From: Massariosphaeria phaeospora
Lineage: Eukaryota; Ascomycota; Dothideomycetes; Pleosporales
DNA: 64,000 nucleotides
Reading direction: 5' to 3'
NCBI GenBank assembly: GCA_011032825.1
Contig: JAADJZ010000018.1
Coordinates: forward strand, 248,001 to 312,000
The position numbers and the translations under genes were made by a program. Below the pieces are notes generated by a model that worked only from the letters and a program-made list of their open reading frames with translations, ran no database searches and was not told the DNA's origin. Positions within the stretch are counted from its first letter, which is position 1. Each line of letters starts with the position of its first letter. This document shows, one piece after another, positions 21,515 to 64,000 of the stretch.

Positions 21515-22964
21515 GTGGTGCTGTAAGGTTTGTACGATTATGTCTCGCCTAGATAGATTCCAGGGCGAATTTACACCTGTTCTGTTCTATTCTTCTTTGC
21601 TTGTCACTAAAAGGTCGAAGTCGCGGGTGTGTCTACACGACCCAACCTTCCAAATGGTAGGCAATGGCAGTTCCGGCAACTTGTCCGTGCACAAATTGAC
21701 GAGGTAACTACCCTCTTCACCCCGTCTGCACTACAGTCTCTTTACAGTACATCATCTGAACTGTAAGTAAATCTACCACTTAGTTTAGATACACTACCCT
21801 TCGTATCCCCATGCTGCGCTAACTGCAAAGCGGTCGTTTTTTGCAGCATCACGCCCACCGCCCTAGGTATAATTCATTTCGGTGCGCACCTAGGTACGTT
21901 CTTACCTCTACGACTAGTGGTACAGGCCTAACATACAATGCCTACTATACTGGATACAGTAGGGCTTTGTAGAGATAAAGGTAAAGTGGCTACTAGGTGC
22001 TGAAAACTCTTAGGCTGTTGAGAGGATCGCTTGAAGTCGCGTTTTATTAGCGATGAAGTCTGCTGAGGGATTGCACTTCTTACGGTGAAGTGTAAAGGAG
22101 GGAGGAGGATAAGAAGGTGGTATAATGAATGGGGTGACTCAGCTTGTGGGATTTTGGGTGGTCGAAATGGGGAGAGGCGTGGGGCGTGAAGGGATTGTTT
22201 GTCGTTGGTAGATCTTCACATTCTCACACTTGGTTCAGCGGCACGCGGTTCAGCGACTCCACGGTTCCACCCGCCAACATCTTCCTTTTGGGACTTTTGG
22301 GATCTCTCCCTTCTCTTTTTTCGCTTGACTTCTTTCTCTTCCTTTCCCTTCTGTCGCTCTTGCGAATCTTAAAGAGGAGTGGGTGCGAAGTGCGCATATG
22401 CATCATGGTTTGCAGCTACGATCGCAACGCTACAAAATGATCAACACTAAAATCTGTTAATAGCGATATCGTGTTTTACGCGAAGAAGTTGAGTTGTAGT
22501 GGCGGCCTGTCTGCGAGGCAGGAACGACCTTACTAGGAAAGCTTGTAGTAGCTAACTTCGCAGAGACGTCGGAAGCATCCTCAACACCAACTTTCACTGT
22601 TGTATTGTTACTTTCATTGCGCGCGCCAGTACTAGGCCTATTACTTCGCTTCATACTTCTCTATCCATCGCTTCGCGCATGCTCAACCTCGTTGCCACAT
22701 CCCTCGAGTCGTCGCAGAGTGAAAGCGTCGACAGACTCTCAGTTCATTCGTATGAATCTCCGTCGGAAACACGAAGTAAGATCATACGCTCACCAAAGTG
22801 GGTCGCGTAGCATTGATGCGACCTTTCCATGCTTGTCGACATTGTTCGACAGTAGTGAAAGTCCCCAAGTCTCTATCCATTATAAAGGCTCCATCTTTTC
22901 TACAAAATACTAAACGCGACCCCAACACCGCGACTCTCAACATACTGGAAACCACCAAACCGCA
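21515..22964. other. Intergenic region of about 1.45 kb
   Basis: No gene found. An imperfect inverted repeat sits near 21947-21971 (CCTACTATAC ... TACAGTAGG). The end is the promoter of the gene at 22965. Confidence 0.5.
22881..22886 (+). promoter_or_regulatory. TATA box of family member 1
   Basis: A TATAAA lies 84 bases before the ATG at 22965, at a typical distance for a short leader. It supports that ATG as the start. Confidence 0.55.
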
Positions 22965-24242
22965 ATGCCACCAAAACTCCGCAAGCAGAGCTGTACGCAT
23001 CCCATGCCATCGGGTCTCAACCTCATACTCGAACGCGAACGCAAGTGTCCAGTCTGTGTGATCCAGCACTACCTCGTTGAGATGCAGGCCACGCAAGCTG
23101 GCTGGGCGATGCGCGGTGGCATATACGGATCCATTAACAAGGTCCGCCGTGAGAGGGTCGACACGCTGCTCGAGTCGAAGCAGCAAAAGAGGCATACTGC
23201 GTGGAAAAATAAGTGGAGGCAGGCGAAGATCAAGGTGTCGAATACGGTGGCGCTATTAGAAGACTATGTAGCTGGTGGGGGGGAGGTCGGGTATGGGATA
23301 AAGGGCATGGAGATGGCACTTGAGGCGTTGAGACTATGGGAGGAGGTGAGGGAAGACAACACGATGCCGTATTTGGGTGATGAAAGAAACGTATATCCGA
23401 GTGTTGAGGCAGAATCTGAGGAGCCTGTTGAGCAAGTGCAGCCAACCCAAGGCGCAGACCAGGACACGGACGAGACCTTGATGCCCGCACCGAATACTGG
23501 AGAACGCGCCGTGCCTTCGGTTCAGAATCCAGTACCTAATACAACAACACCCCACATTCGCTCCGCTCTCCGCTGCTCTTCATCCACAGCCCCCTCAGCT
23601 CCACGTCCGTCTGTCCGATTCGCCGAGTTCGCCACAATTCGATACGAAATCGACCCCGACGACACCGAAACTCACCCAGGCCTTGTCCAGTATCCACATA
23701 GAGTCCCGGATACGACACGAAATAGCAAGAACGCACTCAAGATACTTAGACGGAGTGACAACGAGAAGTATCAGCCAGGTACGTGGGCGTCGCCACCCGA
23801 ACACGAAAAATGGGACACGAGCTTTTTCACTAGGCGTTGGAATGGAGCTTCCGTGGAGGAACAAGATGATGACGAGGTCCCCACTGCCGACGACGAGATC
23901 TTTGACGTAGACACAATAATGCGTACGGTCGAGCTGGGTTCCGATTTCCGCCGCGAGTCGATGCAAGGAAAAGATGACGAGCTGCACACTGGTGGCGGAG
24001 ACATTAACGCAAGCACGATGATCGAATCGGTTGAGCTGGGTTCAAGGGTTCGTCGCGAGTCGATACAAGAGGAAGACGGCAAATTCCACACGGGTGACCC
24101 AGGCGTTGAGCCGCACACGATGATCAAATCGGCTGAGCTGGACCCGGATGTTCGCCGTGATTCGATTCAGGAAAAGTTCGACGCCGGGGAAGATGACGAG
24201 GAGCGGATGTCTATACAGCAGGATGAGAACGTAACATCTTGA
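22965..24242 (+). CDS. Unknown protein, member 1 of a three-gene family in this window
   Basis: 425 residues, single exon. A zinc-like N-terminus has C10-x-H12 and C28-P-V-C31 followed by His35, then helical, basic segments (residues 40-125) with AWKNKWRQAKIKVSN. The middle is disordered. It carries PSVRFAEFATIRYE near residue 217 and, near residue 270, the C-terminal motif KYQPGTWASPPEHEKWDTS. Three tandem 34-residue repeats rich in Glu and Arg close the protein. The same three blocks in the same order occur at 25158 and 48058, so these are paralogs. No known domain is recognised. The CxH...CPxC site suggests zinc binding and the composition a nuclear protein; both are inference. A TATA box lies just upstream. 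Confidence 0.75.
   Translation: MPPKLRKQSCTHPMPSGLNLILERERKCPVCVIQHYLVEMQATQAGWAMRGGIYGSINKVRRERVDTLLESKQQKRHTAWKNKWRQAKIKVSNTVALLEDYVAGGGEVGYGIKGMEMALEALRLWEEVREDNTMPYLGDERNVYPSVEAESEEPVEQVQPTQGADQDTDETLMPAPNTGERAVPSVQNPVPNTTTPHIRSALRCSSSTAPSAPRPSVRFAEFATIRYEIDPDDTETHPGLVQYPHRVPDTTRNSKNALKILRRSDNEKYQPGTWASPPEHEKWDTSFFTRRWNGASVEEQDDDEVPTADDEIFDVDTIMRTVELGSDFRRESMQGKDDELHTGGGDINASTMIESVELGSRVRRESIQEEDGKFHTGDPGVEPHTMIKSAELDPDVRRDSIQEKFDAGEDDEERMSIQQDENVTS
23913..24200 (+). repeat. 102-bp in-frame tandem repeat, nearly three copies
   Basis: Copies at 23913-24014, 24015-24116 and 24117 to about 24200 (partial). Each encodes 34 residues with the pattern T-(I/M)-x(3)-(V/A)-E-L-x(2)-x(2)-R-R-(E/D)-S-(M/I)-Q. 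The units have diverged at many positions. Confidence 0.85.
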
Positions 24243-25157
24243 CGTGCCGGAAATGAACGGGAATCCGCTGAAGTCTACGTCTAAAGGGTGAGCTAGCCGC
24301 TACAACGTGTTCTCCTGCCCGGGACGGGAACCGCAATCCAACACGACGACCAAAATTCATTTCAAGGGCTCGGAGTGATATCGGCTGTGTTTGGTTTTGG
24401 AATTGGGCTTGCAGCATCTAACACCGACACATGGAGGACGGGGATGAAGTGTGCAAATGTTCGCGTGCGCTGCATTTTGAGTATTCCTAGAGACATCACT
24501 ATAGACACCGGTAGTAGATGTGTTTGGATTCGATAGACATTCAGGGTATGAAATGAATTATGTGTCTATTCAAGCCTATGATAATTAAGCTTTAGAGTGA
24601 CGAACCATATGTTTCGATGTCGCACGCCGGTTTTCACTGCAAGAGTGAGACTGGTAACGAACATGTTTGTTCGTTGTATAGTCGATATTGTTACTCCAGG
24701 GCATGCTAGAAGTTATATTGTAATGTTCTCTATCGACCCGTTGTATGAAAGTCATCTTGACGAACCATGGTTGATTGTGTCCCATTCACTGTACTGTCAG
24801 CACACAGCCTCATACATTCTCCACAGAGCACTCAACTTCACAATCCATCTCGCCCCCGCAGTGAAAGCACATACAACCGGCGGAGTCATACCCCTGTATG
24901 ATGTGCTCGGCGCGGCCCGGAAAAAAGTTGTTTCACCCGACTCGACGGGTTGTCCTATACGTCAGCTCCGGGTATGAAATTTTATGACCTCATAAACTTC
25001 CTGGCTCCAACTTACTTCACTTTTGGTACTGGACCTCACATTCCAACTCTTCGACCTGCTACTACTACCTACTGCCTACTGCCACCGCCACTGTTGCTTC
25101 TTACAGATTGAACACGAACACCATTGGCAGTTCGATCTTGTTGCCCGCGCGAGCTAC
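24243..25157. other. Intergenic region between two paralogs
   Basis: About 900 bases separating family members 1 and 2. No gene seen. The open frame of the next gene extends upstream to 25023 but without an ATG. Confidence 0.5.
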
Positions 25158-26768
25158 ATGGATCAGAAAGTCGCTTCGATGGATGGAGAGAAGAGAGAAG
25201 AGGGGGGTTCTCCGCCCGGGACTGCGTCTGCGTCTGCGTCCGGCGTGGATGGGTCCAGCTCCAGCTCCAATACCTCAAGCTCTGGTCCTGCATCCGGCTC
25301 TGCGTCTGGCGTCAATGGGAGCAGCGCCGGTTTCAATACCTCAAGCTCTAGTTCCGCCCCTCGCCCTGCCTCTCGTTCCGCCCCTCGCCATGCCTCTCGC
25401 TCCAACAACGCCGCCCAGACCGATGTCTATACCTCGAACATCCCCAGCTGCAGTCACGCCTTTCCACTTCTCCTCCTCGAACTCACCGCCCCGCGCACCT
25501 GCCCGACATGCCTGGTCCGGCATTGCATCACCGAGATCCAATGGATCCAACTGGAGCAGAAGAAGCACGGCGGCATCTTCGTAGCCAAGGAGAAGTTGGC
25601 GTCGGAGTGGGATTATTGGAGAGCGAAGACCAGGGGGGTCAGAGTTTTGCTCGCGAATGCCGTGTTGAAGTACCAGGCATTTGAGGACGCTATGAAACAA
25701 GGAGTCGCTGGCATGGATGGAATCAACGAGAGAAATGTGGTACGAGGCGCGCTGGATCTTTGGGAAAGGAAGCAGGATGTGATTGGAAAGGTGCCCGGGG
25801 TGCGGATCACGGGTGATGGCCTGGGCGAGATTGAATTGAAGGATCCTTCTGTGCCGAAAGAAGATCGAGACAAGAATGAGGAAGAATACAGACCCCGTGT
25901 TTTCCATGCCAAGAGACGACACAGTCATAGGTCAGATGAAGCTCCCACGGCTGCGTTCTTGAAGTTCCAGGCGGTCGTTGCAGCCCGCGCGGAGAGATCT
26001 GCCTCAATGAACCGACATAAGCACATGGACCAGAAGGTACCTGGGTTCAGTCGAATCGACAAGTTGCTTGCTGATCTCGGAGCTGATCTCGGAGAGGAGG
26101 CAGGAAACAACGGTTCAAGAGTGGAGTCCGGGTCTGACGATGTCGTGATGACAGATGCAGCGGAGACGTTTGCAGTGTTACAGAAAGATGGGACACCAGG
26201 GCGTGAGCTCTCGAAGAAGAGGAAAAGACCCGTCGAGGAGGCGGAGCCTCAACCCGGACCAGCAACCAAGCGCCCAAAGACCGCCTTCTCAGGTCGTGTC
26301 AAAAAGGACTTTTCGAGCGCCACAGAAAAGAAAGTCCAGTTCGCAGAAGAAGCCACAATCATCCCCGAGATCCTCACCTTTAAGCCCTGGGCTGCCGGCG
26401 TACCCACCGCCAAAGCAATCATCACCCCGCGCTACTGGCTCCTTCCACAACCACCTACTGCAGCTCCACAACCGGTAACTCGACCTCACAGCCGGTACAC
26501 TGACGCCAATAAGAAATGCGTCAAGCCGAAGCGCTTCTCGCGTCGGAGGACGAGGCACAGTCCCACTACCTGGACACCAAAGCCTGGATATGAGAAATGG
26601 AACACAAGTTACTATTATCATGACTGGGACTCTATGGGACGCCGACATGAGCGCGCGGATAAAGAGCTTTTGGAGGAGGAGTTCGTGGCTTGGTCGACCA
26701 AGAATATCGCGGGAACGTGGGTGTCGTTGTGGTGGCTTAAGAGGACGGCGAATATTAGGCCTGTCTAG
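25158..26768 (+). CDS. Unknown protein, member 2 of the three-gene family
   Basis: 536 residues from the first ATG of the frame (MDQKVASMDGEK); the frame upstream has no ATG. A Ser/Ala/Pro-rich leader with a degenerate repeat (SGVDGSSS, SGVNGSSA, then RPASRSAPRHASRS) precedes the family N-terminus: C-S-H ... C-P-T-C-L-V-R-H. Helical segments and ALDLWERK follow. The middle has a strong nuclear-import type signal (SKKRKRP ... ATKRPK) directly before EKKVQFAEEATI, and the C-terminus has RHSPTTWTPKPGYEKWNTS. All blocks align in order with members 1 and 3, though identity is low. Function unknown. A nuclear location is inferred from the basic signals. Confidence 0.75.
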   Translation: MDQKVASMDGEKREEGGSPPGTASASASGVDGSSSSSNTSSSGPASGSASGVNGSSAGFNTSSSSSAPRPASRSAPRHASRSNNAAQTDVYTSNIPSCSHAFPLLLLELTAPRTCPTCLVRHCITEIQWIQLEQKKHGGIFVAKEKLASEWDYWRAKTRGVRVLLANAVLKYQAFEDAMKQGVAGMDGINERNVVRGALDLWERKQDVIGKVPGVRITGDGLGEIELKDPSVPKEDRDKNEEEYRPRVFHAKRRHSHRSDEAPTAAFLKFQAVVAARAERSASMNRHKHMDQKVPGFSRIDKLLADLGADLGEEAGNNGSRVESGSDDVVMTDAAETFAVLQKDGTPGRELSKKRKRPVEEAEPQPGPATKRPKTAFSGRVKKDFSSATEKKVQFAEEATIIPEILTFKPWAAGVPTAKAIITPRYWLLPQPPTAAPQPVTRPHSRYTDANKKCVKPKRFSRRRTRHSPTTWTPKPGYEKWNTSYYYHDWDSMGRRHERADKELLEEEFVAWSTKNIAGTWVSLWWLKRTANIRPV

Positions 26769-29964: not shown

Positions 29965-30758
29965 TTTGGGCTGGCCGAGTTGAGTGATTTAGGTTGGGAT
30001 GAGTGATGAGTCGCTTGAAAAGAGCAGTGACATCCCTAAGTCGTACTGGCGACTCTTATATCCCTTTCTTTCTATGCCGTACGACACGCCCGCCTTCTTA
30101 AATTCGACGCCAACCCGCACATACCTTCCCCTCTTGATGCGCACTGTAGGGCCCCCGAGACAATACCACCTGGCCAGACACCGTACCTGGAAGTTCAGCA
30201 ACGTCACTGCCTGCAGTTGCACTCGCTTGACGAACGGCCTGCCCAAACTGGCCATGGTGTTGGCATCCCGTACGAGAAGACGACATGCACCAAACCGTGT
30301 GCATACATATTCGGTTGGCTTGCTTTTGCGGAGGCCGTAGCCTTAGTACGCAAGGTTTGTTGGAGTACATACTCGCAAGCCGGATTCGAGGTGTGGTGAC
30401 ACGAGACGTCCAACCCTGTAATTGGAAAAGAAATGTACCTTACTGTGTACACCTTATCGAAACATAAGAGTGTTAGCAAGCACTGCACAGGATTAGCAAC
30501 GAACCAATAGAGTGTACCATATATAGTATCCACACAACAGAAAGAATACTCACAGCCCCGTCGCATTTTTCCCCCAACCACTAGCGCCCGTCTTTATAGT
30601 ACCCACCTCCCTAGCTGCATGAACCCCCTCCAACGCAAACGCCCCACCCGCTACACCGCATCCCCTCACCCACCCACGCCTCCTCTCACGCCTCATTTCC
30701 CGGTTCCCCACCATATAATCCCCCCGACTCTTCAAAACCCTCATCAAACAACTCCACA
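29965..30758. other. Intergenic region upstream of the tRNA gene
   Basis: Holds the promoter of the minus-strand small secreted protein, with TATAAG on that strand near 30056-30061. Nothing else recognised. Confidence 0.5.
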
Positions 30759-30781
30759 GCATCGGTGGTTTAGTGGTAAAA

Positions 30782-30830
30782 GTCCGTTCCTCCATTCTGA
30801 TTCGTTGAACCATAACTAACAATGTTCTAG
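30782..30830 (+). other. Spliceosomal-type intron-like insertion in the tRNA gene
   Basis: 49 bp, beginning GTCCGT and ending TTCTAG, with a perfect CTAAC branch site (30816-30820) whose branch A is 11 bases from the end. 49 bp is the commonest intron length in this window. Removing it restores D-stem position 25 as T (pairing G10) and brings the anticodon stem into place. The donor differs from the usual GTAAGT/GTATGT at positions 3-4. The 3' boundary also lies in a possible TAACTA/TAGTTA hairpin. Confidence 0.7.
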
Positions 30831-30843
30831 TTAGCCGTTGCCA

Positions 30844-30853
30844 GAGCGCAACA
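30844..30853 (+). other. Canonical tRNA intron, 10 nt
   Basis: GAGCGCAACA lies between tRNA positions 37 and 38 and forms the bulge-helix-bulge fold with the anticodon loop, including the required position 32 to intron pair. Confidence 0.75.
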
Positions 30854-30896
30854 TCGGCTAGCCCCGGGTTCGATTCCCGGCCGATGCAATTCAGAA

Positions 30897-30906
30897 TTTT
30901 CTTTTT
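30897..30906 (+). terminator. RNA polymerase III terminator
   Basis: A TTTTCTTTTT run starts 9 bases after the tRNA discriminator base, as expected for a functional tRNA transcription unit. Confidence 0.75.
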
Positions 30907-31663
30907 GCTGGTGGGGAGGTGAGATTTTTGAATGTTTGGTGGTGCGCCGCGAGGATGGACTGTAACTAGCGCATTACGTAAGGTTCGCTTAGATGGTGCT
31001 TGCCGCTTAGTAATCGATCGATCGATCCATCCATCCAACGAACATGCACTATCACGATCTAGAGTCTAGAGCACTGTAACTTTCGAATGCAAACGGTGAT
31101 CAATGACCCTCGCAACTTGTGCTTTTCTACGAAAAGGCTGCACAGGGGGACTCAGGTAGTGCTATCGCGGGTAGAGAATCTGATTTATGAGGTTTTGATC
31201 GGTCTTTTCATAGTAATTGCAAGTTTGTACATGTAGTTGCCAAGCTTATATCTACCTACAACTTCCTGTTTGTGCGATTGCACAGTGGCAGAGACTAGGG
31301 AAGCTGAAAAGCTGAAGCTTGCTCCTCCTACGTACAGTAGAGTCGGCCACTGCCTGTGTTGGCGGTCTATCGCCCACATGTCATCGACATCTCATGTCTA
31401 GGGCCGTGCAACTCCTCCGTACATGTTAGCCGTCCGCGCAGTCCCAGCCGACTCCAGCATGGTGGCTTCGCCTTGTCCTGCTATGATGGGTCGCTTTCTA
31501 CGATCGACTCAACGAGATGGCGGCTTCGCAACCGACGGCGCAGACTCCTTGTAGTCCCGCCAACGGGCGAGCTCGATACGCTCGGCGACGACGATTTTGC
31601 CTCTGCGAGCTGGGGCGCATCCTAGGAGCGGTTGCTCCTTTTCAGGGTTCAATGAGGAATACC
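30907..31663. other. Intergenic region
   Basis: About 750 bases downstream of the tRNA, up to the end of the histidine kinase gene. A short GATC/CATC simple repeat lies at about 31013-31036. No gene seen. Confidence 0.5.
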
Positions 31664-34600
31664 TCAGGGAACTAAATCTCCAATCCGCCCATCTAGTCCA
31701 GGTGCGGGCAACTCGGTCGACGGCGTAGTAACTTGAGGAACAAGCCCTTTCATCATATGGACGAGATCCGTCGCTTTGAAAGGCTTCTGCATGACGCGAT
31801 CCTGCTTGTATTAGCCCACAACATCCAAAACAAGCGGATCTCCAACTCACAGCCCCAACCGCAATCGCATTGTCAATCTGCTCCTGCCGCACATTCGCGG
31901 TGACTGCGATTATCGGTAGCCTCTGCTCGCCTCTCAGTCCATCATTAAGCGCCTGACCCAGCAGCCCCTCTCTGTCCACTTCTCTCTTACGGATCTCCTG
32001 CATCGCAGCGAGCCCATTGAGGACCGGCATCTCCAAATCCATGAGCACGACGTCGAAGGTCTTCTTCTCGAGCATGTCCAGCGCTTCGAGGCCGTGATTC
32101 GCGACGTCGACCAGACACCCCGCCTTCTTTAGCTGCTTGCCGAGCACCTGCTGGTTGATGATGTTGTCCTCTACAAGTAAAACGTGCAGCTGTTCAGGCG
32201 CCTGACCGGCCTTACCAGAATCGTGGTAGAGCTCGCCGAGCGTCTGGGGCGGACGCTCTACGCGTCTAGCCTTGATGTAAAAGCCAAAGGTTGAGCCGTT
32301 CCCGAGCGTAGAGGACACTCCAATCTCACCACCTTGCTTTTCCGTCAGCTCCTTTGAAATGAACAGGCCGAGTCCACTGCCGCCGTAGTTAACATGAGTG
32401 CGTCCATTAGCTTGCCCGAAGCGCTCGAAAATCTTGTGAGTATCTTTGCTCTTCAAGCCAATGCCCGAATCTTGTACGAGAAACGTGAGGTATATTTCGT
32501 CGCCTTGGCCCCATTCCGGATTCGCGGTTACGTCGCAGTCATGCTTGCTTCGTGTGGCCCAGAACATATCCTGCGCAAAGAAGGCGTGGGGGTCGGAGAG
32601 ACAGGCGCCGTATCTGATGGAAATGCTCCGGTCGTTGGAGGGCTTGACGAACTTGATTGCATTCGTAACGAGGTTTATGAAAATCTGAGTGACACGGGAA
32701 GGGTCGAAATAAAGGTAGTCAATTGCTAATTTGGACAATGACGCATCCGGTTCAACACTGCACCTAATGCGATGCGATTTCAGTTCTGCCTCGAACATGC
32801 CAGTAATGGAATTGACTAGCTTCGGGGGGCGTACAGCGCTTGGTGTAATAGAAAGCAACATTGAGTCGAGCCTGCTCAATGTGAGAACGTCGTCAATGAT
32901 CCGCTTCTGATGGTTAGCACACTGCATGATGATGTTTGCTGCAGCAACGTTGTCAGTGAGAGCGTCAAGACACGGCTGTGGTATCTCGGCGAGCTTGGAG
33001 TGGCACTCGTCAAGAGCGTTACTGATCCCATCAGCGCAATGCACAATAGCGCTCAGAGGGTTGCGCATTTCATGGGACACGACATCGATGAAGGCCTCTT
33101 GCTGCCGTTTGGCTTCTCGTGCTTCGGCAGCTAGTCGTGCTTGGAATGTCTGAGCCCATTTGAGCTTGCTGATATCGGTGGTGCAGGACATGACGGATTT
33201 TGTAATGCCATGCTCGCGGTAGGGGAAGGCAAGAATCTGTACCTGGGCAGGTTCCGCATCGCCAATAGGTGATTTGAATAGCCGCTTGGTTCTGACCTCG
33301 ACAGAAACATGGTTGTCACTCTCTAGCAGGCTGTCCCATGCCCGTTGGGCTTTGGGGCGATCTTCATCCAAGCAGCCGTCCAGGAAAGCCATTGGGCTCT
33401 GCTGATCGTGAGCATCTCGCCCCGACAATGCGTAATGGTGCTCGTTGGCCCATAACGTTTCCCCTTGGAGCGACATGTGCGCCATGCCAATCGAAGCATG
33501 CTCAATCAGGTGGCGCAGCTTCAAGTCGCTGAATGCCAATTGACTTTCCAGTTGTTGTTGGCGCTTCATTGCCTCTTCTGCGTTGACAGCCGCGAAGATG
33601 ATGCTTGATACCATCCGTCCCAGGTTCTTCAAGAACTGCTCACAGTGGTCATCGAGTGGCCGGCATGGATTGGTGCCAACGATGAGGTAGGCGAAGATGC
33701 GCGATCCGCTCGTGATGGGTAGTATAGCCAATTTCTTCGATGGGGAGCCAAATCCGCCCCAAGAGATAGAGCCGAAGCGCTCATCATAGTCGATGAGGAC
33801 CAGTTCGGCAGTGTCTGCGCGTCTGCAATCCGGGATCAAGCCGTCGAGACTGTCCATATCCGATCCATCCACAATTAAATTATGGCCTGTGGGGAGTCCG
33901 ATGTGCCCCCGCAAACGTAGCCCTGTCGGCCCCAAACGATCTTTGGCTTCATATAGCAGAGCGAGTGGTATGTCGTTTCCATTGGTCTCGAGCGTCTTGA
34001 GGATGTGTGCGTAGACTGCATTCAAGGTAGGGTCCGGCACAGAAGCCATGCGATTCAGCATCGTGGTCCGCCGTTCAGCCAGCTGCTGGTCTGTGACTTC
34101 GATAAGCGCATTGTAGAAGCCTTCGGGCTGGCTCGTGGATCGGCTGCTCAATGGCACAAAGTTGCCCGAGAAAAAGGCCCTGCCGGTTATCAGTCTCCGT
34201 GGCCTAAATTTGCCCAGGTTGTCATCTCACTCTTCGCGCCATCCCCGCCGCTCGACCATGAGAGGCATGGCGGCCGATTGTTCGACGCCGCGGCCCGTCC
34301 GTCGCGCTTCGTCAAAGACGGGTTGGATGCTTTCCCACAATTCCGGAAATCCATCGCGGAAGGTCGAGCCCATAAGCTGCGGGTGCGCCTGCGCGGCGAG
34401 GGGCATGAAGGCTTCATTGTAGATGGCGACGAGATGCGGACCCCTGTCCACGGTCAGTCACATCGAAGTGCAGCGTCCAGCCCCTGTGCCTGTACCCACC
34501 ACCAGAGACAAGCGGCGCGCGAGTCGGCAAACAGCATGCGCGTGAAGAGCTGCAGCGTGGGGCCCCAGTGCTTCAGCGGCCCCAGCTGGCTCTGCGCCCA

Positions 34601-46133: not shown

Positions 46134-48057
46134 GTTGATGAATGGGTATCTTCGTCTTGCTGGTATGGAAAGAAGTTAGAGTATCTCGAGCAGAGGGGAA
46201 AAGGTGTCGGTGACTTGAAGGCGATCTTTTTGAATGCTAGCCCGCCGACGACACACTGCCGACGCGAGAATGATAGCCCTGATAGTGTTAACAGGCATTC
46301 CATGCGTCCGCTAGGCAGGCATGTTTTTGGGCAAGATTATAGGCGGATCGTCGCCCATGGAGAGTGCATGATGAACTGCCGTAGATTAAAAGCTTGAGTG
46401 TTCATCTATGCTAGGCGGTCGATCAATCAGATAACACATTCATGTGCGACGAAATAAATGAGGTGCACTCGAAGAAATCGAGATTGGGCATTTGGTTAAT
46501 AATTCTTAGTACGGCGAGCAGGGTTTAGATGAGAAGATAGGGTTTGGAAGCCATCCAGAAGGGATCGAAGAACGCTGGGACAAGGGTGGAACGTGAGGAC
46601 TTCGGGCGGGAACTTCGAGACTTCTTGCATTTGAAACGATTGCGGGAGCCTCAATCGCGTGTCTTCAATATGCGTTGAAGAAGTTAGATAGAGATAAACG
46701 TGGCCTGAGGTATTATCAGCCCGGTCAAGCTCGTGTCATTCCAGGTTTACTTCGTACCGGGCTTTGCTCTGCCAGATCAAGTCGTGTGGATATTTGAGCA
46801 TTCGATAAGCCGGAGGGGAGCCGGTGTCCTGCTTCAGCAATGTCATCGGAGCACGCCGGCGCTTCCGAATTCTGCGGAGCCGGGCGCTAGGTGGAGCACG
46901 TGAGATGTTTCCACTCTCAGGCATCCTCAACGGGCACGCTTGGTCTACTATTGAAAAGTTTCCATCGCAAAACATGTTTATAAAAGCGGAGGGATAAGTA
47001 AAGAGCCTTGAAGCGCCCAAAATTCGAGGTTTTCAAGGTTCGAGATAAAGTCACGTTGATGTGGCGACACCTGCTGCCGGGCCGCGTTAGTTGGGCTGGA
47101 CCCTTCTTTGTGCTCAGTGGATGCCTCAGGACCCAACCCCACTCGGTAGCGCCTCTGTCTTACATCGTCCCATCCGGGCAGACTGTTTGATACAGCTCGG
47201 TCAGCATAACAAGCGTGTATTGCGCCATATGCTTTAGTGTTCACAACACTGTTTTGTAGATCTTGCGCCGCCTCCTATTCGCCCCTTCAATAGTAAATGG
47301 TGGAGCTTTTAGTACCACAAACAAAGTCCTTTGCAATGCTCTTTGCAAGAACTTGCTACACCAAACGTACCTAAAACTTGATTAGCAGTGCTGTAAAAAA
47401 ATTAAGGACTTGTTTCTGGCTTAGCTTAGGTATGTTAACTGTACGCCCAACCAGTCGCCCTCTAGGAGACGAGTTCAGCGCACGCTGTGCAATTTTTGTT
47501 TTCTGAAGTTAAGCTATCAGAGTCTATGCATTCACTGCGACGTTACAAAACTAACCACCGTTTTAAGCCTTGTACTAAAATCGCCCTGCCAGAACGAGCG
47601 TCTTATTAAGGGGTTGGGATGGGCGGAAGAAAGTGTTGCTAGTGGTAGTGAATCTTCAAAATGAATGAACTTACGCCAAAGATGAATAAAGGTCTAAAGT
47701 CAATGTCTGAGGTATTGTTTAGATGTGGGATACGCAGTAAGCACCGAAGTTGGGCGGTATGCGGTATGCGTAAAAAGTTGAGTGAAAGCTCTCAGATAAT
47801 CACCAAACGTCTCATCCCGATCATGAACCTTTTCTCACCGCAAAAGTTTCTTTCCCACACCATCGTCTGTGCTTCTTCGTACGTCATACACACGACCCTC
47901 GGTTTGTAAACAGTCGACAGTGCTCCCTCGCTCGCAGTTTCTTCTCCACCAACCCACCAACCCACCTCTTCTCGTGTCAACCTCAACCCAATTCTCTCTC
48001 TTTGAGCTGCTTGTCCATCCATACAAACAGTCCTCTTTTCCAGACAACACGAGCACA
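46134..48057. other. Intergenic region of about 1.9 kb
   Basis: Divergent between the DUF1996 gene and family member 3. No gene recognised. The frame of member 3 stays open upstream to 47869 but has no ATG until 48058. Confidence 0.5.
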
Positions 48058-49713
48058 ATGCTCCCCAACGTCTACTTCGGCTGCTCCCAAGGCGCACCAT
48101 CGCCAGAGTCCTCAACGCAGCCTGCCGACACAGGATCGTCGCCGAAGCCTCCGCTGTCGTTTCACGCGCCCAATGTGAGCATGGATATATGCGAGGATGC
48201 AGGAGCGCAAGACGTGGATATGCTAGTCGACGCTCCGGTCATGAACATGCACGGACACGAGGATGCAGAAGCACAAGAAGAGAACGTGGTATTCGACGCG
48301 CCGGTTATGAAAGCGCACAAACACGAGGATGCAGGAGCTCAAGACGTGAACATGCTAGTCGTCGCTCCGGTCATGAACACACATGAACATGAGTATGCGG
48401 TCATGGAAGTGTATAAAAACGAGGATGCAGGAGCACAAGACGAAGACATGCTAGTCGACGCGCCTATGCCCTCGTCCCCGCGCCCTGAATCCATACCTTT
48501 GACACGCCCTGGTTTGGCTCCATCTCAAGATCCACCTGGAGTGATTACGACCAGCCCGTCGGTATCAGATCCGGCCTATTTCGACCGCCGATGCCCCCAT
48601 AAAACCCATCCAGCTATAGCCACCAGCTTCAAGGGTTCGCTATGCCCACCCTGCCTGGTATCTAACAGAATCAAGACGATGCGCCATTTCCATGAGAGGA
48701 TCGCCTCAAAAGGTGGTGTTGAGAAATGGTGCCTGGCAGTGAGAGGTGATCCAACATCTGCGAAGTGGGTAAAGCTCAAAGCCCTTCCAAAGTCACAGCT
48801 AGCCAAAATCGAAGAGTATAAGAGTACAATCAAAGGCCGGGACAAGAAACATAAAAAACGCAATTTAGGGTACCGAAACGTAGAAGTAGATCTTCTGAAG
48901 ATAGTGGCGCAACTGGAGAAGCACAATGAGCAAGAGCTACAGTACGAGCAAGAGAATGGCGCCGTCGAGTGTGAGCATTCGGCCCAGCGGGCATTGGAGA
49001 TCTACCACAAAGCTAAATTCGACATCATGTACGTACCTGGCGATCCAGCGGGTGAGAGCAACAAGCGGAAGCGGGAAGAAGAGACCGAAGATGAAGACGT
49101 AACAAACCACAACGCTTCATATGGACCAGAGGACGACGTACCCCAAGTTAAACGCCGCCGTCGCGTCACGTTCAAAGACACAGTGGCAGTACGGACGCTA
49201 TTCGACGTCGACGAGTTCCGCAAATTGCCTGCCCGTGAGCCGTCGGCAACGGCCGTGACACGGGCACGCAGCTGTCTCCGAGGCGGCTCCAATCCCGTTA
49301 CTCGGCCCAGAACCAGGATTGAAAAGATCCGGAGTCAAGTAAATATCTATACGAGTAAAGTCCATGGCCTGTTCCGAGATCCAATACCTCCAGCTGTCCT
49401 GCCCCGAAGTGTTCCGCTTCCCTTGAACGAGCAATGCTCACGAAAGGGCGCATATTTCAAGCGGACCGGAGTCAAGAAGTACAGCCCCGGGGCGTGGGCT
49501 CCACGAGCCGGATGGGAGCGAATGGACACCGGTCTTTCGAAGATGCCATGGAAATCGGCGGGAGTATACATCAAGGAGTCACAAAAAGAAGCCGATGCAA
49601 TGGATATTGAAATATTCCCGGCGCTGTTCCCAGTAGTTCCCACTATAGGATTGGCGATTGGGACTTTGGCTGCTCCGGTAGCTTTGGGGTGCATTATTTA
49701 TCATTACCAGTAA
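48058..49713 (+). CDS. Unknown protein, member 3 of the three-gene family
   Basis: 551 residues from the first ATG (MLPNVYFGCSQG). After a leader come tandem 22-residue repeats with the core EDAGAQDVDMLVDAPVMN. The family N-terminus follows as CPHKTHPAIA ... LCPPCLVSNRI, then highly basic helices (KGRDKKHKKRN) and ALEIYHKAKFD. The middle has a nuclear-type signal (NKRKREEE, VKRRRRVTFKDTV) containing RVTF. The C-terminal motif is KKYSPGAWAPRAGWERMDTG. Unlike the other two copies it ends in a hydrophobic stretch (FPALFPVVPTIGLAIGTLAAPVALGCIIY) that could be a membrane anchor. Function unknown. Its stop lies 70 bases from that of the convergent receptor gene. Confidence 0.75.
   Translation: MLPNVYFGCSQGAPSPESSTQPADTGSSPKPPLSFHAPNVSMDICEDAGAQDVDMLVDAPVMNMHGHEDAEAQEENVVFDAPVMKAHKHEDAGAQDVNMLVVAPVMNTHEHEYAVMEVYKNEDAGAQDEDMLVDAPMPSSPRPESIPLTRPGLAPSQDPPGVITTSPSVSDPAYFDRRCPHKTHPAIATSFKGSLCPPCLVSNRIKTMRHFHERIASKGGVEKWCLAVRGDPTSAKWVKLKALPKSQLAKIEEYKSTIKGRDKKHKKRNLGYRNVEVDLLKIVAQLEKHNEQELQYEQENGAVECEHSAQRALEIYHKAKFDIMYVPGDPAGESNKRKREEETEDEDVTNHNASYGPEDDVPQVKRRRRVTFKDTVAVRTLFDVDEFRKLPAREPSATAVTRARSCLRGGSNPVTRPRTRIEKIRSQVNIYTSKVHGLFRDPIPPAVLPRSVPLPLNEQCSRKGAYFKRTGVKKYSPGAWAPRAGWERMDTGLSKMPWKSAGVYIKESQKEADAMDIEIFPALFPVVPTIGLAIGTLAAPVALGCIIYHYQ
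48193..48474 (+). repeat. 66-bp in-frame tandem repeat
   Basis: Units at 48193-48258, 48259-48324 and 48325-48390, a 30-bp remnant at 48391-48420, then a partial unit from 48421. All begin GAGGATGCAG or a close variant. The remnant shows that one unit lost part of its length. Confidence 0.88.
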
Positions 49714-59454: not shown

Positions 59455-62400
59455 TTACACACCTAACTGCGCATTAGTAAGGAAATGACTACCACCCCCA
59501 CAGCGATATCCTTGCATCTCTTTAATCCACTGAAAACCCATTGGGCAACAACCCAATTCTCGACATTTCTTTTGAGCCTGCATTTCCTTTTCTCTTTCTC
59601 CTCTTTCCATTGCTGCAAGAAATTCTTCATGCCTTCTTCTTTCGAGTTCAGCTTCTACTCTTTCCGCTTCTCGACGTCGCCTTTCTTCTCTTCGACCTTC
59701 ATACTGCTCTTGTACTTTGTGTCTATATAGTGGCAGAGTATCTGCTGTAGTTCCTGGTCATTGTAATCCTGAAATTCCATCGATACCGGGATTCGACTTG
59801 GTATTCCAGGGTTATGGGCAAAGAAGGCTTCCATCTGCTTATGGTAGCCGGCCAAGACAAAGACTACTTTCCCAGTGAGGTTCTCAATCTCGACTAAGAG
59901 GTAGTCTAAAACCGCTTTGCCACCATAGCTATTCCCAGAGACCAACTGATAGGCTTCATCAATGAAAAAGACGCCCCCACCTTCTTCAAGGATCTTATCG
60001 ATGTGGGCTTTGCAGGCAGATACTCCATCGTTGGCTAGAGAAGATCCTGAGGATTCGATGAAATGATCCCCAGGGAGTGCGCCAACTTCGACCAAGAATT
60101 TGGCGTAGAGGCGTGCAACCGTTGTTTTACCTACGTGACTATGGTCAGGCAGATACTGTGACTTGTTAAATGTAAGACCATACCTGTACCCGGGTTCCCC
60201 AGCAATGCAGCTCCGAGCCTTTCGCCTTTTAGTGAGACATCTTGTCGTACTACGGTATCTACCTTGGACTTGATGCCAAGGAAGCTCTGCTTGACAGTCT
60301 CCAGTCCTGCGTCTAATCGTGAGCACCAGTTAAAACACAAAAATGCAATACTGACCTATCATCTCCATTAACGCGTCAAGCGCCTCATTCTCTGCACCTT
60401 CATGCTTTTTTTGCCACTCCCAATCATCTTTCGACTCGCTTTTTCCCCAGTCCTGTATCGGCTGTTTGTTGGTTGATGTGTTTCCTTTTTCGTTATCTGT
60501 ATTTGTAGACTCATTCGTTGAAGTTTGAGAGGACGCATGCACAGCTTCAGCGTTCGTGGAATGGGAAGTGGGTGGTGAGACTGATGTTTCACGAGTCGAA
60601 TTGAGTGTTGTCGTAGAGTTTCTAGCCTTCTCTTTCAAGTTCGTCAAATCCAGCTTCATTTGAGCTAGAGAGTTTTGTCGGTCCTGTTCCTCGGCTCGAT
60701 CCTTGAGAACACGCTTCTGGTGGTCAAGCTCTTCGCGCATCTCCGCTAGTCTAGCAGCGTATGCGTCTTGCTTTGCCTGGCATTCTTGATCAAGCCTATG
60801 GTCTCGCTGGCGCTTCTTCTCTTGTAGGCGATATTCTGCCTCGCATTTCTTGCAAGAAGATGCGGCCTTGTCATGGCACCTTCTCGAAATTTTGTGATTC
60901 TTTGGACATTGAGAGGTGACGATAGCCATGCATTTCATTTTCGAGTGATCTTGCAGTTGGTGACATCGCTATAGACAGGCGTGATTGCCACAGTTGAGCA
61001 GTATCCCACTTCATAGTGTCAGCATTGTCACCAAGCGTCGCGCTTCTTCTACATCGACTCACCAAGACTCTGAACAGCCTCCATCTGGGCAAACCGTTTC
61101 AAACTGCTCCTTTTTCGAGATGAGTGCCTTCTTTTCAGGATGCTGCTCGCATTTTACAGGAAACCCGTCGTAGACATGGCCCTCTCGCTTTAACTGATCC
61201 ATCAGCGGAACCCACACGTCTTTGCCTTTACGACTGTTCATAAATGTATCTGCATTTCCAATCATTATTGAGCCGTTCCGTGCTCTTGACAGAAGCACGT
61301 TCACTCGCTGTGGGAAAGCCATGAACCCAATGTCTCCTGCAGTGTTGCTCCGCGTCAAGGATGCGATGACAATGTCGCTCTCTTCTCCTTGGTAGTTGTC
61401 TGGAACCTGTTAGTCTTGAGTCTCATGATTTACAACAATACAGGGAGCACGATAGAACTTCAGTCTTGTGAAAGGGATAGACCTGAAAACTTGGCTGACC
61501 TATTGTAGATATGCGAATCATTCGTTTAGAGATATTCGCAGCTGCAGGTGTGAGCAGACCGGCCTGGATCAGCTCGTGCGAGTCCAAATCGTTCAGAATA
61601 GGGTCATTGTCCCTGGAGAGCGTCTTCAGAAGGAGGAACAGTTGACCGAGATAAGGTGTTAATATGACAATCTGATCCGTATTGTAACGTTGCTGTCCGA
61701 GATAACGAACAAATCTCAAGACCATGTCAGCCTCGTACTCGTTCTCTTTGCTAGACTTGGAGCCCTCGTCGCGACGGTCGTTGAGCTTATCGGCGTTCAA
61801 TTCAGGTTGGCTATGCGACACAAAGATGAGATCGTCTTGCAGCCCACGAAGATGTGGTCTTCCCTGAGTCTTTGGAGCATCTTCCAACTCGGGATATGTG
61901 AGATTTCTGACAAGAGATGAGATCTCTGGGCGCATTCTATGCTGTCGGGTGAGTGTGGTATGTGGAACACCAGCAACGACAAGTCTCTCAAACAGAGATT
62001 GGTTGAGGTTATATCCATCGCCTTTCTCCATGGTCAACGCGTAGTTGTTGACTTTCGGTCGAAGTTGTTTATGCTCACCGATCAGTACCAGCTGTTTGGT
62101 GGTCGGAGTCATCGCGGTAAGGACATGACTCTCTAGAATTTCGCCTGCTTCTTCGACCAGTATTATACCAGGAGACACCTTCTGGAGCTGTTCTGTGTAC
62201 ATAGCAGCTGCAGTCGTTGTGCAACCGATTATGCGCTTTTGTTCCAGGATGTGAGCTGACTTTTGGCGAAAGAGCTGATCGATAAGATCGCGGCACTGAT
62301 TATACTTGTGTATCAGATTCCCAACCTCAGCAACGTGCTCTTCCGTCATCTCTTTTATCCAGCGGCTATGAACAGTAAACCGAGCCTGAGGATCAAGTTT

Positions 62401-64000
62401 CCAAACATCGCGATACTCACCCCTAACGACTGCCTGTGGAACTCGGTTATTTGTACCGTTCATCCATTGTTTTAGCAAGTAATGTGGGTCGATGCGCCTA
62501 CCGCGCTTTCCAACTACAATCCCACCATCATCACTGTCTAGAATCTGAAACGCATCGAAGAACCATGAGTCGTCAGATAGTTCCAAATAGTCGAGTAGAT
62601 CTTGATCCGTAATACGAGTGGTTCGGAATATGGCCACCTTCTTCATTAACGTCTCATAGTAGGCTTCGGACTCCAACTTCTGATATTCAATCATGCTCGA
62701 CGTCTGTCGGCTCATTTTATACGTGTTCTGCTGTTCAGAGATGCTGAGGTGTTTCGTGCTAGCGTCAAACCTCCCGCCAATTCGAACCATGGCACTCTGA
62801 GGGATGCCAATATTCTGCAAGTCGAGGAGGAACTGGTCCAGTGCATGGTTTGTGAATGTCTGTACAAGTATTGTCTCACTTGTGTGATCATGTAAGATCT
62901 TCGCAATTAGAGCGCCAAGAAACAACTTTCCAGTACCTAAGTTTGTCAATCACAGTCTTTCATTGGAGCTTAGCAATCATAGATGGAACATACCTGGAGG
63001 ACCTTGTATAAGACTTACTCTCTTCGCTAGACCAATGAGTAGCGACTCAGCCTGAGCGTTGTCAAGATTCACGCTTCTAGTGGTTCGGAGTATATTTTGT
63101 AGATCGCTGTCCAAATTCTCTCGGATCGTATTGATGATCGTCGATGGATGAATACCAGTCAAAGCCTCACTTGAGTCTGGTCCCAACTCGAGCAGCTGTT
63201 CTTGAAGCGGTACTTCAGACATGTTTTGTAGTCGCTTTAGGATTGGCTCGTACGCGAAGACTGCCGTGTCGACTTGGACGAACAGAAGATCTGATGCAAG
63301 TTTACTAGCGAGTAATACCTTCTTGAACGAGTTTTCATCGCTGACGCGCAAGACCAGAACGGGCGGCTGTTTCGCAAGCATATCTGTGTCTCGATCGACC
63401 GAAGCGAATGCTACAATGTTTCCATTACTGATAAGGCATCCAAGCGACTGGTGTTTGATGATCTTGCTGTTCTCCATCAGGAATTTCTTGCGCGCTGGCA
63501 CGTTATTTTGTAGATGTCTGAGCTGACTCAGTTGAGGAATGTCTTCTCTGCATTGAAGCTTTATACAGCAGTGCTTCCGCTTAACCTCAGGCCCACAGTC
63601 AATCCCGATGAAAGTGAGACCTTCGAGTACAAGTTTGCGGCGGCCCCGCTTTTGACCTGTGGCTATCTGGAAGTCGTTGCGCAGTTCCCCGAGGAGATCT
63701 TTCCGCAGCAACCGAAATTGATTGTCTAGGTGCGTTGCGCCTCGATGCTAGGATTCTATGGCTTCAATAGCGTCAGTCCTTCTATAGAAAGGCCTTTCTG
63801 TATTCGCGAACTCATCGGACGTCGGCAGGATTTTGATCTTGCGGAAGTCTGCAAAATCATTATCATGACGGCCACCTGGTCCGTCTTGGACATCAGTGGA
63901 AGAGCGCTGGAGGATGTGTTGAATCTTATAGCCAATATTGCGGACTTCTAATGAGGACGAGTTGATGAAAGACTCATATTGTGTGACGCGTTCCGCCACA
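59455..64000 (-). pseudogene. Decayed NFX1/ZNFX1-type helicase with a SpoVK-like AAA domain
   Basis: Runs off the right edge, so the 5' end is missing. Reconstructed exons, in gene order: to 62994, 62936-61500, 61399-61063, 61008-60356, 60306-60184, 60130 onward. Order: superfamily-1 helicase (Walker A GPPGTGK, VEEAGEILE, TRQHRMRP, DNYQGEESD, NVLLSRAR), NFX1-type zinc-finger remnants (CGILLNCGNHAC ... RCHQLQDHSKMKC), coiled coil, a CbxX/SpoVK AAA ATPase (LLGNPGTGKTTVA, FIDEAYQL) and a C-terminal Cys block (ELGCCPMGFQWIK, YRCGGGSHF). Damage: in-frame TAG at 63748-63750, in-frame TAG at 60969-60971 inside the zinc finger, and a frameshift near 59718-59745. The Walker A Ser/Thr is also replaced by Leu. 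All splice sites are still good, so inactivation looks recent. Intact relatives are RNA-helicase-type proteins; their role in fungi is unsettled. Confidence 0.8.

Follow-up and report, generated by a model that had tools for sequence, protein, structure and literature searches.

Putative spliceosome-type introns at five ectopic sites, one of them irregular, in seven transfer RNA genes of one fungus

In the textbook split, the introns of messenger RNAs (mRNAs) are removed by the spliceosome and those of transfer RNAs (tRNAs) by a protein endonuclease. Rogers et al. (1993) are said to have described an mRNA-type intron in the nuclear 18S ribosomal DNA of deuteromycetes, and the introner-like elements of fungi, which have stable folds, give spliceosomal introns a way to spread to new sites. 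Among small RNA genes transcribed by RNA polymerase III (Pol III), the U6 small nuclear RNA gene of fission yeast has an mRNA-type intron, as mentioned in PMC10484740 (citing Tani and Ohshima 1989, 1991). Ectopic or multiple tRNA introns, lying off the usual position 37/38 and in some genes more than one, are described for Cyanidioschyzon merolae and the Guillardia theta nucleomorph in the relevant parts of PMC3978253 and PMC9602550. Here we report on a tRNA-Gly(GCC) gene in a stretch of 64,000 nucleotides (nt) of the pleosporalean ascomycete Massariosphaeria phaeospora (positions 248,001-312,000 of contig JAADJZ010000018.1, in an assembly of 42.08 Mb and 51 contigs; hereafter the window), which contains both an ordinary tRNA intron and an insert with the look of an mRNA intron.

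Like the deuteromycete case, this would be an intron of spliceosomal type in a fungal structural RNA gene, but there the product is an RNA polymerase I (Pol I) ribosomal RNA with no second splicing machine, whereas here it is a Pol III tRNA. The likeness to fission yeast U6, as far as that account of it goes, is a spliceosomal intron in a small Pol III-made fungal RNA gene; U6, however, belongs to the spliceosome, and its intron is ascribed to reverse splicing, whereas here several tRNA genes are involved. The introns described for Cyanidioschyzon and Guillardia in those sources have bulge-helix-bulge (BHB) or undefined borders, whereas the inserts found here have a donor, a branch site and an acceptor of the spliceosomal kind. 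In the open-access literature we found no tRNA genes reported to contain spliceosomal introns, subscription papers being mostly outside this search and earlier reports possible. We consider it very probable that the inserts are spliceosomal introns (U2-type-like) in Pol III tRNA genes and are removed by the spliceosome, with the tRNA endonuclease taking the 37/38 introns. As judged from their signals and positions, such introns appear to be a real feature of this one fungus, where they would occupy five ectopic sites, one of them irregular, across seven tRNA genes. The window gene is made up as follows.

30714-30717, + strand: TATA element, a Pol III-type upstream element 45 bp 5' of the tRNA start, read from the sequence
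30759-30888, + strand: tRNA-Gly(GCC) gene, spanned exactly by the match to the Rfam tRNA model RF00005 (36.5 bits, gathering 29) and recognised by ARAGORN once the ectopic segment is removed
30759-30781, + strand: exon 1, tRNA positions 1-24 (acceptor 5' strand and D-arm to position 24), identical across three copies
30766-30776, + strand: A box (TGGTTTAGTGG), unbroken, read from the sequence
30782-30830, + strand: putative ectopic spliceosome-type intron of 49 nt in the D-stem, tRNA positions 24/25, placed by a structure-only removal scan and by GT..AG with a branch motif, common to both other copies
30782-30787, + strand: donor GTCCGT, weak (GTYCG across three copies), from sequence comparison
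30816-30820, + strand: branch-site motif CTAAC (ACTAAC in three out of three copies), from sequence comparison
30826-30830, + strand: acceptor TCTAG (TTCTAG in three out of three copies), from sequence comparison
30831-30843, + strand: exon 2, positions 25-37, with the anticodon GCC (ARAGORN; removal scan)
30844-30853, + strand: 10-nt intron of the ordinary tRNA kind at 37/38, base-paired to the anticodon loop (ARAGORN; GUUGC/GCAAC pairing in the fold)
30854-30888, + strand: exon 3, positions 38-73 (anticodon 3' strand, T-arm, acceptor, discriminator; ARAGORN and removal scan)
30867-30877, + strand: B box GGTTCGATTCC, unbroken, from a pattern search
30897-30906, + strand: Pol III terminator-like T runs (TTTT C TTTTT), read from the sequence

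This is the layout of a functional tRNA-Gly(GCC) gene, with an intact cloverleaf, A and B boxes, an upstream TATA element and a terminator; the nearest long open reading frame (ORF), at 31509-34226, is on the opposite strand. GGC and GGT (GGY) account for 129 out of 214 glycine codons (60%) in six window ORFs, so that a tRNA-Gly(GCC) is hardly dispensable.

Because insert borders should not be chosen by eye, we deleted one segment of 25-80 nt at each step and rated the remaining sequence by tRNA structure only. Segment 30782-30830 was the sole top of 3010 placements for the window gene, by a margin of half a point (27.4 versus 26.9), and the GT..AG segment is the sole best, by 0.5 points, in all three tRNA-Gly(GCC) genes found in the genome. 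ARAGORN reads the unspliced window gene as a false tRNA-Gly(CCC) and, after removal of this segment, as tRNA-Gly(GCC) with a 10-nt intron at 37/38. These results agree with a prior annotation made from the letters of the window (the sequence-only reading), which had proposed that the tRNA-Gly(GCC) fold needs the removal of this segment, beginning with GT and finishing with AG, and that a separate 10-nt intron lies at 37/38. The branch site it named is present, as ACTAAC, but CTAAC stands 10 nt from the intron end and not 11. GT..AG together with such a branch motif is found in about one in 10,000 random window segments of 47-56 nt. The reading had also taken 49 bp to be the commonest intron length here, which did not hold up: the pattern GT[AG]NGT..CTRAC..YAG gives 23 intron candidates in the window, against a chance expectation of 9.7, and not one of them is 49 nt long, the commonest length being 56 (n=3). 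As for a tRNA model that makes use of the 49 bp, ARAGORN run on the three unspliced copies gave Gly(CCC), Leu(TAG) and Ala(TGC), which are mutually discordant, and a scan of the whole window with ARAGORN under bacterial settings gave no match.

The sequence-only reading had pointed to a genome search for other tRNA genes with the same insertion, and this search returned two more tRNA-Gly(GCC) genes.

C20:202833-202965, - strand: tRNA-Gly(GCC) copy, D-stem insert of 51 nt at the same site as in the window copy
C20:484481-484608, + strand: tRNA-Gly(GCC) copy, D-stem insert of 48 nt at the same site as in the window copy

A whole-gene DNA similarity search of the genome gave these three copies and the insert was present in all; each gene combines a GT..AG insert (48-51 nt) at 24/25 with an ordinary 37/38 intron. 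The 71 exon bases are identical among the three genes. The inserts are not uniformly alike: for the two diverged pairs, identity is 4-5 out of 5 at the donor end, 13-14 out of 29 in the middle and 15 out of 17 at the branch/acceptor end, and for the close pair (the window copy and the plus-strand copy on contig C20) it is 4 out of 5, 25 out of 28 and 16 out of 16, respectively. Comparison of the 1.5 kb flanks, both upstream and downstream, gave no match at E 0.01 for any two of the three genes. This pattern looks like selection acting on the tRNA, on the donor end and on the ACTAAC..TTCTAG end, with the middle being free to drift.

The relatives of the 49-bp segment are few: its core 21-mer, with up to three mismatches, is found at two places in the genome, both in tRNA-Gly(GCC) genes, which differs from the many near-identical copies typical of introner-like elements. 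The proposal of the sequence-only reading that an intron-like element had landed in a tRNA gene is thus a poor fit, both to this absence of other genome relatives and to a site common to three copies. Exact-pattern scans of viral and prokaryote contigs for the ends of the gene gave no match.

Four other search routes did not reveal an insert-free tRNA-Gly(GCC) gene: a search with the 5' half (up to three mismatches; the extras were one tRNA-Gly(CCC) gene and two fragments), a search of the genome with the 3' half (up to two mismatches), the 48-49 Rfam tRNA matches, and 99 GGTTCRANTCC sites (57 + 42; 19 are inside Rfam matches and the remaining 80 were screened for tRNA). At C20:464565-464600 (+ strand; L035) there is a Gly(GCC)-like 5' half without the D-stem insert, which matches spliced positions 1-36 at 31 out of 36 bases before the similarity stops, with a TATA-like stretch upstream; it may be a non-functional copy free of the insert, representing the state before intron gain, or a duplicate derived from a spliced tRNA. 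Another locus (L036, C20:549979) has little beyond the first 17 bases of tRNA-Gly(GCC).

Four further genes with ectopic inserts were selected by the length and position of the insert, not by its ends.

C7:783232-783352, - strand: tRNA-Ile(AAT), 47 nt insert at 45/46, GTGAGT..CTAAC..TTAG, no 37/38 intron
C48:1821400-1821548, + strand: tRNA-Glu(CTC), 53 nt insert at 52/53, GTAAGT..TACTAAC..TTAG, plus a 37/38 intron
C9:884012-884172, - strand: tRNA-Ser(TGA), 56 nt insert at 53/54, GTGAGT..TACTGAC..CCAG, plus a 37/38 intron
C11:125032-125185, - strand: tRNA-Gly(CCC), 48 nt insert at 58/59, starting GAACGT, AACTAAT..TCAG, plus a 37/38 intron

By their signals, the Ile, Glu and Ser inserts appear to be introns of the spliceosomal class at three other ectopic sites, and the insert of this one tRNA-Gly(CCC) gene is probably such an intron at a fourth. 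The inserts of all seven genes are 47-56 nt long, with AG at the 3' end and CTRAY 9-11 nt upstream of that end, and six out of seven start with GT (the donor is GTRAGT in Ile, Glu and Ser). Their positions are 24/25, 45/46, 52/53, 53/54 and 58/59, none of them being at 37/38. Removal of the insert restores the expected isotype in seven out of seven genes according to ARAGORN; with the inserts left in, the program reports a wrong tRNA for four and none for three. All seven have a TATA element between -33 and -45. The removal scan for Glu and Ser has GT..AG tying for best with neighbouring registers.

The A box of tRNA genes occupies positions 8-19 and the B box positions 52-62 (as laid out in PMC3978253). 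The Gly(GCC) and Ile inserts lie between the two boxes. The Glu and Ser inserts end right at the B box, where the last bases of the intron replace the first purines of the box, and the box at the junction reads GGTTCGATTCC, as kept in Glu, and AGTTCGAATCC in Ser; only in tRNA-Gly(CCC) is the B box split.

Same-anticodon genes without an insert are present for Ile (L019), Glu (L070 and L125) and Ser (L009), including the following one.

C4:1068934-1069022, + strand: insert-free tRNA-Ile(AAT), ordinary 37/38 intron, no insert in the variable loop

For both Ile and Glu, one paralogue has the insert and the other lacks exactly this stretch. The tRNA-Ile(AAT) gene on C7 has only the GT..AG insert in the variable loop and the one on C4 has only the 37/38 intron, and the two are identical over 74 bases when spliced; they would form a natural pair for the study of intron gain or loss. 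Likewise, a tRNA-Glu gene on C12 lacks the T-stem insert and its spliced sequence is identical, over 72 bases, to that of the C48 gene. The insert fits four registers in each of the two pairs, with GT..AG among them in both, and this comparison is independent of the tRNA model for the 3' parts compared. The exons of the other tRNA-Ser(TGA) gene differ, by eye, from those of the insert-bearing one. Together, the GTRAGT..CTRAC..YAG inserts in Ile, Glu and Ser and the insert-free Ile and Glu paralogues make, as far as such signals can be trusted, a stronger case for spliceosomal introns than a lone gene with a weak donor. The Ile insert (C7:783260-783306, - strand) contains a possible TCACTT/AAGTGA hairpin.

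We regard it as very improbable that the insert-bearing genes are disrupted pseudogenes, hit by intron-like DNA, with working copies elsewhere. For Ile, Glu and Ser, the insert-free counterparts would allow the insert-bearing genes to be non-functional at no cost, the tRNA-Gly(CCC) gene with the GA..AG insert may be dying, given a tRNA-Gly(CCC) gene (L022) without such an insert, and the genome search was non-exhaustive; but all three copies found of tRNA-Gly(GCC) have the insert, the four other search routes having returned no gene free of it, and in these three copies, set in dissimilar flanks, it is the inserts that have mutated and not the exons. The insert-bearing Ile and Glu genes, moreover, match the exons of their paralogues and have TATA elements. 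The dead-gene option raised by the sequence-only reading is therefore unlikely, and the best supported of the three options it raised is splicing by two machines, where we infer the splicing from the sequence.

Ordinary 37/38 introns were collected from 54 other tRNA genes as a control (the seven ectopic genes, including L027, the doubtful L059, L061, the Met-like L111 and the B-box sites without a clear tRNA are omitted; L077, whose anticodon reading TCA is doubtful, is included). Such introns are present in 40 out of 54 genes, are 6-35 nt long and have a fixed position; GT..AG is found in one out of 40 and CTRAY in none out of 40, although these introns are shorter than the ectopic inserts and have less room for CTRAY. 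Signals of the mRNA type are enriched in the window: among donors with CTRAC and YAG, GTAAGT is seen six times (0.33 expected) and GTGAGT five times (0.67 expected) under a first-order random model, and the distance from branch to acceptor is 6-13 nt in 22 out of 23 intron candidates.

The inserts could alternatively be ectopic tRNA-endonuclease introns, as in Cyanidioschyzon or archaea, with a BHB at the borders cut by the Sen complex and GT..AG arising by chance, which we find very improbable. The host must own an endonuclease that removes 37/38 introns, as 40 out of 54 genes have them. The ectopic inserts, however, differ from the 37/38 class in length, in GT..AG and in CTRAY, and what they conserve is the donor and the branch/acceptor end and not a common fold. 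BHB pairing at the ectopic borders was no better than in shuffled inserts for seven out of seven genes (0.32-0.94 of the shuffles reach it), a weak test, as the overall score of the 37/38 controls is no better than that of shuffles either. The exon-exon helix has 1-3 out of 5 pairs in the ectopic cases, as against 4-5 out of 5 in ten chosen 37/38 control introns. That the introns belong to longer RNA polymerase II (Pol II) transcripts crossing the tRNA genes, with Pol III reading the tRNA itself and the intron mattering to the Pol II RNA only, would suit spliceosomes that work mostly on Pol II RNA, but is extremely improbable, as the cut restores a tRNA in every case, which a host transcript does not need, and the three tRNA-Gly(GCC) copies in dissimilar flanks all have a Pol III-like TATA element.

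Several observations weigh against spliceosomal introns in these genes. The donor of the Gly(GCC) inserts (GTYCGW) is atypical, and the sequence-only reading was right to call GTCCGT weak: donors of the GT[CT]NGT class are no commoner in the window than chance predicts (12 versus 13.7 expected), yet this donor has been kept in three copies. The tRNA-Gly(CCC) insert starts with GA, and three registers tie in its removal scan, none of them GT..AG. For Ile, the removal scan slightly favours a cut other than GT..AG (27.37 versus 27.0); we nevertheless take the Ile border to be compatible with GT..AG because of the insert-free paralogue. The Ser and Gly(CCC) inserts contain TTTT, which could stop Pol III. 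The minimum-energy fold of each of the three Gly(GCC) precursors has the 5' strand of the D-arm paired with the insert (in the third copy by means of a different insert sequence), and such a pairing could hinder or regulate splicing or could be due to chance. Finally, unlike the fission yeast U6 gene, the U6 matches here (six out of six) show no intron-sized excess of length, and neither do 21 out of 21 5S matches, so that this type of intron looks to be absent from other Pol III genes, as judged from these best-scored candidates.

For spliceosomal introns, the following course of maturation can be proposed. Pol III would read the gene from the TATA element and the A and B boxes; in the nucleus, the spliceosome would excise the D-stem intron using the donor GTYCG, the branch site ACTAAC and the acceptor TAG; the cloverleaf would then form, and the tRNA endonuclease and ligase would excise the 10-nt intron at 37/38. 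We infer that the spliceosome probably acts first, because the D-arm is required for the shape of the tRNA. It is likely, although less so than the nature of the inserts, that the spliceosome is an essential tRNA-maturation enzyme in this fungus, with every tRNA-Gly(GCC) gene found holding a spliceosomal intron and the decoding of GGC and GGU depending on the splicing of a Pol III transcript in the manner of an mRNA, and that tRNA genes have undergone about five intron gains, mostly sparing the A and B boxes.

If true, this would mean that a needed tRNA with both kinds of intron links the two sides of the textbook split, that Pol III tRNA precursors can serve as substrates of the spliceosome, that intron gain in a structural RNA of 70 bases is survivable, and that translation is tied to splicing. 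Sets of genes that encode one and the same tRNA, some with an insert and some free of it, would also be a clean system for the study of intron gain, and tRNA gene counts in such genomes would be too low. The search for noncanonical introns in tRNAscan-SE 2.0 is described for the archaeal mode, with BHB models (in the part of PMC8450103 dealing with it), so that genes of this kind might go undetected or be misinterpreted in fungi.

In our whole-genome Rfam scan, which scored 63 of 1281 candidates, two of the seven ectopic genes were listed above the cut-off, one below it, and the other four were not listed. A pattern for more T-arm introns returned none, its design being unable to match the Glu or Ser cases. 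No gene was recognised for Phe, elongator Met, Pro-AGG, Pro-TGG or Arg-TCT in this incomplete tRNA inventory of the genome, and further ectopic introns may be hidden there. The Met(CAT)-like locus (L111, C6:948834-949194, - strand) has an anticodon arm and a T-arm, a TATA element upstream and a long T run, without a matching acceptor 5' strand or D-arm; it is a relic or, alternatively, a tRNA carrying another insert. Two adjacent tRNA-like matches (C11:305099-305170 and 305285-305356, - strand) have odd anticodon arms and lack the usual TATATA or T run in the printed bases; they are perhaps organelle-derived or relics.

Other Pol III loci were noted as well. The U6 genes (L142-L146) have a B-box-like GTTCGAG about 12-15 nt past the T run in four out of five copies printed, and U6 of budding yeast has a similar B-box-like element after its T run. 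The copy L146, without GTTCGAG and without TATA, looks like a pseudogene. Four dispersed and nearly identical loci (L082, L084, L095 and L126) have TATATA upstream and a B box (GGGGCGACGG..TTGGGTTC.A.TCCCGCCGTCGCTGG), and could be a candidate Pol III RNA family or a short interspersed nuclear element (SINE); L081, L090, L096 and L100 are a second such set. Within the window, three ORFs on the + strand (22914-24242, 24996-26768 and 47827-49713) have stretches of weak mutual similarity (BLASTP E 1e-9 to 3e-5, 27-33% identity) and perhaps form a local gene family. Several ORFs at 59655-63747 (- strand) resemble, by eye, what we take to be an AAA ATPase and NFX1-type helicase gene cut by introns.
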